A stretch of 64,000 nt of DNA from assembly GCA_009823395.1 (NCBI GenBank), contig CM020513.1:7986001-8050000 (forward strand). The letters are read 5' to 3'. The notes beneath the pieces were generated by a model. That model had not been told where the DNA came from. It saw only the letters and a program-made list of their open reading frames with translations, and did no database searches. Source of the DNA: Thamnaconus septentrionalis (taxonomy: Eukaryota > Chordata > Actinopteri > Tetraodontiformes > Monacanthidae). Positions 12,840-32,500 of the stretch are shown here, in pieces; the first letter of the stretch is position 1; the number at the start of each line of letters is the position of its first letter. A program made the translations under genes and the position numbers.

Positions 12840-13757
12840 ATGTTTTCCTCCAAATTCCTAAGCGGGGCCAACCCCCTGAGCGCTGTGTCGTCGGCTGTGA
12901 ATAAGTTTGGCTTGTTTGGAGACGACGGCGATGGAGATAAAAGTCAGAAGGCGGCGAGCCAGCAGGGAGTGAAACCACCCGGAGGACAGCAGCATGGCCC
13001 GGGCCCCCAGCAACAGCAGGGACCGCAGAAAGCCGACCAAGGCCCCTCTATGCAAAAGAGCCAGCCTCCCCCGAAGCAAGCGTCACCGCAGCCGCGTGAG
13101 AAGAACGGACAGGCCGGAGCCCCGAGCAAGCCTGGTGGGCAACAGCAGGCTGGGGCACAGCCAGAACGCCAACTGCAAAAAAATCAGACTCAGAGTTCAG
13201 CAAAGCCTGAGGTTAAGCAGCAGGATTCGGCGAAAAGCGGTGCACAGGCGCCATCGCAAAAACAGGTGACGCCCAAGACGGAGGCGCAAAAACAAGGGCC
13301 GGCTCAGAGCGGCGCGCAAGAATCTGGCTCACCCAGAGTAGGACAGCAGCAGCAGCAAGGGGGGGCAAGAACTGGACAGCAGCAACAACAGGGCTCCGTG
13401 AAACCTCCACAACAACAACAACAACAACAACAACAGCAACAACAGCAACGACAACAACAGGGCTTATCTAAGGTGGGACAGCAGCAGCAGCAGCAGCAGC
13501 AGGGCCCCAAGCCTGCACCTAAACAGGCTGCTGATATGGCAGGACCTCAGCGTCCAGGCCCGAAGGGACCCGGGGCTGCATCACCAGGAACAACCAAAGT
13601 CGGACCTCAGGCAAAAGCTGCGGACAAGCCTCTCTGTCCTGTGTGCAAGACGACGGGACTCAACAGCAACAGCAAGGAACCGCCGAACTACAAAGTATGC
13701 ACACAATGTAAAAACAAAGTGTGCAGCTTATGTGGCTTCAGCCCTCCCGATTCAGAT
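12840..13757 (+). CDS. pclo: piccolo exon 1: N-terminal segment, Q-rich domain, first half of zinc finger 1
   Basis: It starts Met-Phe-Ser-Ser. Residues 6-22 (FLSGANPLSAVSSAVNKF) align with the conserved FLSEVNALSAVS block that lies well inside mammalian piccolo, so the usual N-terminus is missing upstream. Residues about 30-240 are Q/P/K-rich with poly-Gln tracts, like the mammalian Q domain that binds Abp1. Residues 266-306 carry the CPVC, CTQC and CSLC pairs of finger 1. The donor is GAT followed by GTAAGT, phase 0. The ATG has G at -3. Confidence 0.88.
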
Positions 13758-29502: not shown

Positions 29503-32500
29503 CATATATAAGATTCATATTTCATTTACATACAAGGAGAGTGCCTTTATGTCGAAGAGGCCTCAGACAGGAGCATTGATCGGGATCTTCAAGACCCAAC
29601 ACAATTGTATTGTATTTAAATCCCTTGGTTTGTTGGTTGGTTGGTTTATATTGTTACCAGCTCTATCTACTTTGCTAATGTGACTTCCTTTAACAAAATC
29701 GATCTAACAAATAGGGCAGTTTTACCCCTGAGGGAAGTGTTACAGACAAAAAAGTCTCACAAACTAATAAACTAAATTCAATATGTCATAATCCATTCTC
29801 ATTAGATCTATGAGAAATAGTAATGAGAAATTGATATTTCTCCGGGAAATGGCTAACAACATTGTGCCTTTGACCACAATGAATATTGAGATATAAAAGT
29901 TCCTAGTCATGCATTATTTGCATAAGTTGTTTGCCCCATCCCAAATATCAAGTGTTTTTTTTACATTATCAAATTAGTGAAACATGGAGAAAAAAAAAGT
30001 ATAAAAATCTAAATTAAATGAAAGTATGACATTTTGTCCCCTTTCTTGAATTATTTTCTTGCTATTTTCTTACCTCAAATATGGCACTTTATTTAAAACA
30101 AAAAAAAGTGTAGCACAGCTGGAGTGCTAAAGCAGACCTAAACCAAACTATGACAGAGGTTAGATTACATCACTTGACAAAGCTTAATCCAACACATGAA
30201 CACATAACCTGTGTTATTTACTTTACGTCATTGGAGCCACTGCTAATCTCCAAGACAAATTGCGTGGGTTGAGGACACATCCGGATTTTTTACGATTACT
30301 ACCTAACTCTATTGAACTAAACTAAATGCTATTCTAAATTACAAAAACATTAGTATAAAGGTTTCATAATGCATAACACGTACAATGTAGATGGTTACCT
30401 TATCATATGGGCAAAGCACTTATCTACCGCTCCCAGTGGAGCTTGAGTAAGTAAGTAGAGCTTGGAATCACTATTAAAAAAAAAAAAAGTGCCACATTAC
30501 ATAATCCACAATTTTGCAGTTCTCAAAAAGTTGAATTAGTGGATAAGATTATAAATTCTGACTAACAAAAAGCTTTTGGGTGGTCTATTTTTCTACCCTT
30601 CCCCTATAGAAGCAGAAGCCTGGGAGGTAAAATTAAATCTAGAATAAAAGGTGTTGTTTTAAGTAAGACCTTTTCAAAGAAAATAAATGAGAATATCCCT
30701 TGACAGCACAATATATCTTAATCACAACTGAATTATGAAAAAAAAAATCTGAGCTAGATTAAGAGAAACGTTTTATATTTTAATGTTAATAAAGTTTTTG
30801 TTGTATTCTCTTTCTTGGTATGTGTCAACACAGAAGGAATGGCTTTGCCTGAACTGCCAGACTCAAAGGGCCTTACAGGGAGAGCTTGACAACAGAGGAA
30901 AAATGGCTCAGCATTCACCTGCATCTGCCAAACCAGAGACCCAAGTTACGCCTGCCGTCAAAAAGCCTGAGTCTAAGACTTTACCTTCATCCAAAGACAA
31001 ATCACCTATTCCCACAAAAACACAGCCTGCACTAGTTGCAACCAAGGTAGAACCAACTGCAGTGTCAACCCTAAAAGGAAATTTGGACTCTCCACAGGCC
31101 ATTACAGAAGCTATGGACAAGGCAGTCTTGCCTGCAACAGCAGATAAATTGACTTCTGAGGTGGGAAAGAAACCTTCAGAAGCATTGGAAGTTGATCCAA
31201 AAATACCTTGTTTGCCAGTGCTTCAAGACACAGCAATGTCACAAGCAGATGTTCCCAAGAACCTAACTCTAGCAGACAAGGTGGAGACAAAGAAAACTGA
31301 TGAGGGTTTGACTCAACTATCCAAAACAGAACAGTCAAAACCCATCATTTCAAAAGATCACATCAAACATGAAGTGGTTTCAATTGAAACATCTTCCCCT
31401 CCAGCGGCTGACCACAAAGTCGCACCCTCACTCAGAAGTACAGAGCCAAAATTGTCTGCTCCTGAGGAAATTAGTGTGGAACCCGACAATCAAGAAACAA
31501 AGGCAGTTCCAGCAGCTGAGTCAAAGGACGTGACGAGTATAACGGACACTTCAATTCTGGAGACAGAAATATACACAAAGGACATGAAATCAAAAGTAAG
31601 ATTGAATTGTATTTGTATATGAGAAACTGCTAAACCTACATTTGGTCATTTAGATTGTTCACAAATGCTTTATTCATTTATTGTCCACCACACTATAACT
31701 TTTATATGGAAAAATATTGAAAAAAAAAAAGTGACGTTGAACTACATTCTGGCAATTCAATCACATTTAGTAACAAGAGGAAATGCAATATTTTCTCCTG
31801 TTTATTGTCTGCAACATTTTAAGAAATATTGCTTGATTTATATCACCATTAAATCTGTGATCCCGCAGGCATTTACGACAATGATACCTTAACTATTTTG
31901 ACTTACTTTTATTACTCAAAGTTTCCAATTATGTTTTTAACGCTATTCTCTATTTTAGGAGCAAGATAGAAGCAAGAAAGAGTCACTGGAAGACAGGAAC
32001 GTCTCTACGCCAAGAGAACCAAGTAAACTAGAAAATAAAGTTTCTGCTCTTGCTGTTGTGGACAAGGAGAAATTCAAAGCAAAGGCGCAGGATGAAAGTG
32101 TACCTCAGATTTTTCCCATTTCACAAGAACTTGAAAGCGAACAGGTGGTTAGCGATACAAGTAATAAAGATGTAAATGTAATTTCATCCATGGCTTTAAA
32201 GGAGGAGGTTAAAGCAGAGAGACGACGTTTAAGTTTTCAAGCAATGGAGGAAAGCACTGAAAGCGAGGCCACACCCTCTCCTAAAGTTCAGAAGAAAAAG
32301 CTGGAGGTGACCAATCTTTCATCCAGCAGTGAAGATGTCAAAACAGAAAGTACTGACTCAAATATAGAAGATGAAGATTTCATTCGACAGCAGATAATGG
32401 GTATGGGTGATGAAGAGGAAATGTCAATTTCAGATGATGAAAAAGAGAGGAAACCGAAAAAGGAAGAAGCAATTAAGGATGTTGAATTTGATAATACCAC

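Follow-up and report, generated by a model that had tools for sequence, protein, structure and literature searches.

A piccolo b gene with nine tandem copies of one exon, predicted to encode ten zinc fingers and nine inter-finger motifs, as a likely multivalent synaptic-vesicle tether

What does a fish piccolo gain from carrying its inter-finger exon nine times in tandem? The exon array itself is already known: it has been in print since 2012, where it stands without a tested function (Nonet, PMC3484663). As described there, the central exon of teleost piccolo b, which starts and ends in frame 0, is present in 8-16 copies (seven teleosts) and a very large intron follows the last repeat, while a single central exon is found in piccolo a, in bassoon a and b and in the non-teleost piccolos examined. 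Nine repeats occur in fugu and green spotted puffer and were inferred to be the percomorph ancestral state, unequal crossing over was proposed as the origin of the repeats, and a 22-residue inter-zinc-finger (IZF) motif was defined within them, for which phosphorylation was offered as a guess (PMC3484663). More recently, the inter-finger motif of mouse Piccolino was reported to form an ALPS helix and to bind liposomes resembling vesicles (Gierke 2026, PMC13394108). Here we analyzed an array of this type in a 64-kb stretch of DNA (hereafter the window) and propose, at a probability of about 0.6, that the protein it encodes is a multivalent synaptic-vesicle tether.

Nine inter-finger exons and ten zinc fingers

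An earlier note on this DNA had claimed nine consecutive inter-finger exons and ten Cys8 fingers in a gene that it called piccolo, and all three claims were borne out. The nine exons (14311-25766) are each flanked by AG and GT and are in phase 0 at either end (9/9); every one starts with xxEWLCLxCQ, which contributes the final CxxC pair to one finger, and ends with three CxxC pairs of the next finger. With an upstream exon, which ends at 13757, and a further one at 30834, they yield ten fingers of four CxxC pairs each, all ten of them split across exon junctions. All eight cysteines were retained in 10/10 fingers, and PF05715 (Pfam zf-piccolo) matched 10/10 as well (E 1.9e-30 to 5.3e-28; finger 10 was entered with an X at the frame break of the ninth repeat). 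The label "exon 1" in the earlier note has to be dropped, as the exon that ends at 13757 corresponds to exon 2 of the mouse gene (PMC3484663). The exons are listed below, with the support for the clade that each repeat forms with same-position repeats of other fishes (position clade).

13635..13757, + strand: 3' portion of the exon ahead of the array, which corresponds to mouse exon 2; holds three CxxC pairs of finger 1, and finger 1 matches PF05715 at 5.3e-28
14311..15156, + strand: repeat exon R1 (finger 1 end, IZF/ALPS motif, finger 2 start); splice sites, phase 0; position clade 98
16018..16833, + strand: repeat exon R2; splice sites, phase 0; position clade 99
16949..17785, + strand: repeat exon R3; phase 0; best match of the green spotted puffer R3 fragment; position clade 99
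17980..18891, + strand: repeat exon R4; phase 0; best match of the puffer R4 fragment; position clade 100
19071..19973, + strand: repeat exon R5; splice sites, phase 0; position clade 96
20208..21011, + strand: repeat exon R6; splice sites, phase 0; position clade 99
21325..22420, + strand: repeat exon R7, with a frame break at about 21887-21938; phase 0; position clade 99 (two readable pieces joined)
22765..24360, + strand: repeat exon R8; phase 0; best match of the puffer R8 and tilapia R9 fragments; position clade 86
24766..25766, + strand: repeat exon R9, whose frame breaks near 25683, within finger 10; position clade 96 (pieces joined)
30834..30869, + strand: first part of the exon that follows the 5,067-base intron, with the final CxxC pair of finger 10 (PF05715)
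51756..52277, + strand: open frame with part of the Piccolo C2A domain; PF00168 at 1.7e-4; best PDB match 1rh8 (Piccolo) at 5.8e-10

In total the nine exons comprise 8,811 bases (~2,937 codons), which makes the array ~2,650 residues longer than one copy would be. Amplification of the inter-finger exon, as the earlier note had it, stands, with its figure of about 2,500 residues replaced by the ~2,650 computed here. Introns between repeats measure 115-861 bases, and that after the last repeat 5,067 bases. A 69-base (23-residue) tandem repeat, at about 23067-23724, makes R8 larger. Families of repeats with 8-10 copies in the window are far above chance. Neither a motif search of the window for a tenth copy nor a tblastn search of the whole window for further or decayed copies (E 1e-3, known exons masked) returned any.

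Within the 64-kb window the gene is a piccolo, of the piccolo b type (pclob), and its repeats group with percomorph repeats. It is piccolo rather than bassoon because the C2 part at 51756-52277 best matches Piccolo C2A (1rh8); a PDZ-like stretch lies near 47790, recognised by motif only, while a search of the window for a few first-exon motifs of piccolo found none. Its likeness to the published teleost piccolo b genes extends to the repeated phase-0 central exon, the IZF motif, the large post-array intron and the nine repeats of fugu and puffer, whereas R8 has its own 23-residue tandem repeat where fugu R8 has a different one (PMC3484663), and three frame breaks are present in this assembly. 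Teleost piccolo b is further characterised by SEMA3D, SEMA3A, SEMA3E and GRM3 as neighbours. With teleost piccolo a and mammalian Piccolo it shares domain order and exon phases (PMC3484663), but in those genes the central exon is single, and there are two fingers with one motif. Bassoon is similar in having two fingers and one similar motif, but is described as being without PDZ or C2 domains (PMC3484663), in contrast to the Piccolo-matching C2 part of this gene.

Relatives and age of the copies

Long relatives were searched for with the R5 stretch, which returned 405 proteins, and counts were taken among the 120 matches listed; as these 120 include several isoforms per species and partial gene models, they are counts of rows and not of species. 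By our own patterns, 50 of the 120 matches listed exceeded two in fingers or in motif hits. Of the amplified combinations, that of ten fingers plus nine motifs occurred most often (7/120: Acanthochromis, Channa, Menidia, Festucalex, Phycodurus, Hippocampus and Stigmatopora); seven fingers plus seven motifs occurred in 6/120 (mostly isoforms of one salmon), two fingers plus one motif in 61/120 (piccolos and bassoons together), and the zebrafish and Denticeps models had 17 motif hits each.

A FastTree phylogeny was built from 151 repeat modules, nine from the window and the rest from 15 pclob and four two-finger proteins hand-picked from the 120, the latter four being read as piccolo a by their two fingers, not by name. 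Denticeps m2, outside the range of 150-700 residues, was excluded beforehand, and exclusion of 11 modules longer than 500 residues (nine of the 25 from Esox, Umbra and O. gorbuscha, one from Denticeps and one from Alosa) reduced 162 rows to 151; R8 of the window (532 residues) was retained. Every window repeat grouped with same-position repeats of other fishes, at support of at least 96 for eight of the nine and of 86 for R8 (values listed above). The partners came from Acanthochromis, Channa, Menidia, Kryptolebias, Phycodurus and Gouania, which we take to be percomorphs, and a few modules fell outside their clades: the eighth-position module of Gouania (just outside R8) and Phycodurus m9 (outside R9). 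Gouania carries three near copies at position 5, which shifts its later repeat numbers. Sixteen modules of pike, mudminnow and pink salmon formed one clade (99) nested among the percomorph repeats, nine longer ones having been excluded, and ostariophysan and clupeiform modules stood apart, the deepest split being weak (72). The tree thus agrees with Nonet's several separate expansions and adds lineages to them, without proving the point.

Fragments printed by Nonet were also matched against the window repeats: puffer R3, R4 and R8 matched window R3, R4 and R8 best, and the tilapia R9 fragment best matched window R8, as expected from Nonet's model, in which repeat 3 is duplicated in tilapia. 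The 32-base end of puffer R2 best matched R1 and not R2, being too short and conserved to decide, and the cod R13 fragment matched R2 weakly. The window gene is one more percomorph-type pclob with the inferred ancestral repeat number.

At the nucleotide level, 38-47% of aligned positions differed between pairs of the seven unbroken repeat exons (K2P mean 0.655), and the introns between repeats had no similarity to one another at E 1e-3. This divergence, the dissimilar introns and the same-position orthologues in other fishes rule out an assembly artefact as the source of the copies; the earlier note had named that alternative, and the one-to-one position orthologues refute it. The nine copies are old and real.

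The frame is nevertheless broken at three places: i) in R7, between about 21887 and 21938; ii) in R9, near 25683; iii) in a large exon farther downstream, somewhere from 35443 to 35579 and probably close to 35510, where runs of CCCCC and TTTT adjoin the break. The two breaks inside repeat exons are absent from the earlier note. The R9 site, to which this comparison is confined, was intact in the best 14 of the 120 listed R9 relatives, one of which shares 98% identity.

The inter-finger motif

The 22-residue IZF motif, which the earlier note did not mention, was found in 9/9 repeats:

14743..14808, + strand: IZF/ALPS motif of R1
16420..16485, + strand: IZF/ALPS motif of R2
17387..17452, + strand: IZF/ALPS motif of R3
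18433..18498, + strand: IZF/ALPS motif of R4
19551..19616, + strand: IZF/ALPS motif of R5
20613..20678, + strand: IZF/ALPS motif of R6, below the amphipathicity cut-off (0.33)
21938..22003, + strand: IZF/ALPS motif of R7
23908..23973, + strand: IZF/ALPS motif of R8
25345..25410, + strand: IZF/ALPS motif of R9

Judged by sequence, the mouse ALPS motif and the IZF motif are one and the same: both lie between fingers, and the nine window motifs are identical to the mouse peptide at 13-17 of 22 residues. The difference is one of number and of knowledge, with one copy in mouse Piccolino against nine here, and with vesicle binding known for the mouse motif only. The main text of PMC13394108 contains the words Nonet, IZF and teleost zero times, and a search by titles and abstract openings, covering few subscription papers, found no literature that joins the exon array to ALPS function.

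Across the nine copies, the 22 motif codons had a pN of 0.089 and a saturated pS (0.752), while pN was 0.437 over 154 ungapped linker codons of seven copies, 0.081 in the 5' finger half (ten copies) and 0.159 in the 3' finger half (eight copies), with pS saturated in both halves. Since pN was low while pS was saturated, the identity of the motifs is kept by selection and not by recent copying or conversion, and the motif has been kept in separate copies long enough for silent sites to saturate. The 5' finger half is as conserved as the motif, so finger partners could be the target of selection. Between species the motif was the best-kept segment of the linker, at a mean identity of 0.983 for R3 (best 11 of the 120 relatives listed) and 0.971 for R9 (best 14 of the 120 relatives listed), and no other linker window equalled it (0/157 for R3 and 0/213 for R9, in the same best 11 and best 14 of 120); this comparison excludes the 5' finger half, as the gene calls begin downstream of it. 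K[M/L]FGFG was present in 113/120 listed R3 relatives.

Amphipathic character was scored on a hydrophobicity scale in stretches of 18 residues, with cut-offs of our own: a moment of 0.35, a hydrophobicity of 0.30, six or more S/T/G, a net charge within 2 and the absence of proline. ALPS motifs bind as helices to membranes that are curved or loosely packed, and combine a Ser/Thr/Gly-rich polar face with bulky hydrophobic residues and few charges. The motifs of the window have 8-9 S/T/G of 18, a net charge of 0 or +1, a hydrophobicity of 0.59-0.68 and a moment of 0.33-0.41. Over the predicted arm and the next large exon, 26 of 5,502 windows of this size passed, and all 26 overlapped the motif, in eight of the nine repeats. 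In the 120 listed long relatives, a passing window lay inside 505/510 motif hits, against 727/556,658 windows elsewhere. Shuffles within the motif equalled the observed moment in 58-243 of 2,000 trials; thus, composition apart, the pattern of the helix is no more than mildly unusual, and much of the signal comes from composition, as it usually does in ALPS motifs.

Loss of the vesicle-binding motif from piccolo a was also considered and rejected: the zebrafish-group piccolos and many two-finger piccolos carry variants like GKVLGFGSSFLSSASNLIS and QMFSFGSSLLSSATNLV, whose amphipathic values are similar to those of the motif.

Competing readings and a proposed vesicle tether

If all nine exons are spliced together, the predicted product is a protein of ten fingers and nine motifs. 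The phase-0 boundaries also make the nine exons interchangeable, which would suit alternative central exons, with most transcripts including just one and nine isoforms of two fingers each as the outcome. That reading is improbable in our view, since RT-PCR across neighbouring exon pairs and RNA-seq in zebrafish joined all neighbouring repeats with little skipping (PMC3484663), and since the full set of ten fingers and nine motifs is kept in the seven database gene models of other fishes found among the 120 listed. The three frame breaks within about 26 kb might instead suggest that the copies are misassembled or that the gene is decaying, a pseudogene in this species, and breaks in the array, if real, would end the protein from this allele early. 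We consider misassembly or decay very improbable indeed: the copies are 38-47% diverged among the seven unbroken exons and their introns dissimilar at E 1e-3, every copy groups with the same-position repeat of other fishes, the R9 break is absent from the best 14 of the 120 listed R9 relatives, homopolymer runs lie beside ~35510, and the conserved elements are under strong purifying selection. On the intact R9 relatives, the homopolymer runs and that selection, errors of sequencing or private variants most likely account for the breaks; Nonet also encountered such errors and put several of them right by resequencing (PMC3484663).

A more substantial alternative is that amplification served to multiply docking sites for finger partners (PRA1, Siah1 or Rab-linked proteins), with the IZF motif a passenger or spacer. 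The intact cysteines and PF05715 match of all ten fingers are in its favor, as are the strong purifying selection on both finger halves and the binding of pra1 by the finger region of Bassoon (Nonet Discussion, PMC3484663). But the motif is conserved to about the same degree as the finger halves, which is unexpected of a passenger, and it is the mouse motif, in a fragment from between the fingers, that has direct vesicle-binding data (PMC13394108). We therefore regard exclusive finger docking as possible but rather unlikely. Docking of PRA1 or Siah1 by the fingers, as the earlier note proposed, would be compatible with a vesicle tether.

Several observations on the mouse protein point to such a tether: i) the between-finger fragment floats with SV-like liposomes, small ones best; ii) the same fragment brings vesicles to mitochondria; iii) deletion of the motif reduces much of both liposome flotation and vesicle recruitment, the deleted construct being also somewhat poorer at reaching mitochondria (PMC13394108). 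Gierke and colleagues call the evidence for ALPS-mediated tethering indirect, and invoke the avidity of several tethers on one vesicle (PMC13394108); in PMC3484663 the IZF motif has no demonstrated membrane role. For the fish protein we infer vesicle binding by all nine motifs, joint action among them and a division of labour between fingers and motifs. Tandem exon duplication by unequal crossing over would have copied, time after time, a module in which one finger is paired with one vesicle-binding helix, and the modules would recur roughly every 300 residues along an arm taken as largely disordered. The fingers would mainly hold partner proteins and the motif would hold membrane, so that Pclob, with nine motifs on one chain, would most likely hold vesicles through the avidity of many weak contacts.

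The wider proposal, that teleosts amplified an ALPS helix together with a finger, that percomorph Pclob is a nine-valent SV tether and that separate lineages built similar arrays separately, is one on which we find the balance even. The mouse ALPS finding gives the published array a concrete and testable job. It is an open question in synapse biology whether vesicle capture, at the active zone or at the ribbon, is set by tether valency, and teleost arms, which would carry from one (piccolo a) to ~17 tether copies, bear on it. If the proposal is true, these arrays would offer a natural gradation of valency in which vesicle tethering could be studied at ribbon synapses as well as at conventional ones.

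Internal repeat and frame breaks in the piccolo b gene

The features of the window considered here, all in the nine-fold array of repeat exons (R1-R9) or in its gene, are:
23067-23724, 69-base (23-residue) tandem repeat inside repeat exon R8
about 21887-21938, frame break in otherwise open, conserved coding sequence
about 25683, frame break in R9, in otherwise open, conserved coding sequence
35443-35579, frame break in otherwise open, conserved coding sequence

According to the published account of pclob amplification (Nonet 2012, PMC3484663), a repeat is also present in the tilapia orthologue fragment of R8, and fugu R8 carries an internal repeat that differs from that of the window; thus the R8 linker seems prone to expansion from within. 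At the one break site compared, that in R9, the reading frame was intact in relatives (top 14 of the 120 listed).

Naming of piccolo b in databases

Piccolo b is sometimes misnamed, since five models with at least nine fingers each (P0122, P0123, P0129, P0132 and P0152) are nevertheless labelled mucin-5AC-like, mucin-17-like, mucin-16 or bassoon.

Enlargement of the arm in other fishes

In the repeat-module tree, modules 7-10 of Denticeps clupeoides P0137 were four near-identical repeats (end branches 0.02-0.05), an apparent sign of recent expansion or homogenisation. Modules of Esox, Umbra and Oncorhynchus gorbuscha (16 of 25 retained) formed a single clade nested within percomorph repeats, similar to cod, for which Nonet suggested recent re-amplification or homogenisation.

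Among the relatives listed, the piccolo-like P0185 of Paramormyrops kingsleyae has only two fingers, separated by 2,275 residues that hold many copies of a ~28-residue unit, the start of which resembles the inter-zinc-finger (IZF) motif (ESVTGKLFGFGG...); there are 23 exact matches to GKLFGF. This is another route, distinct from the pclob array, to a larger inter-finger arm.
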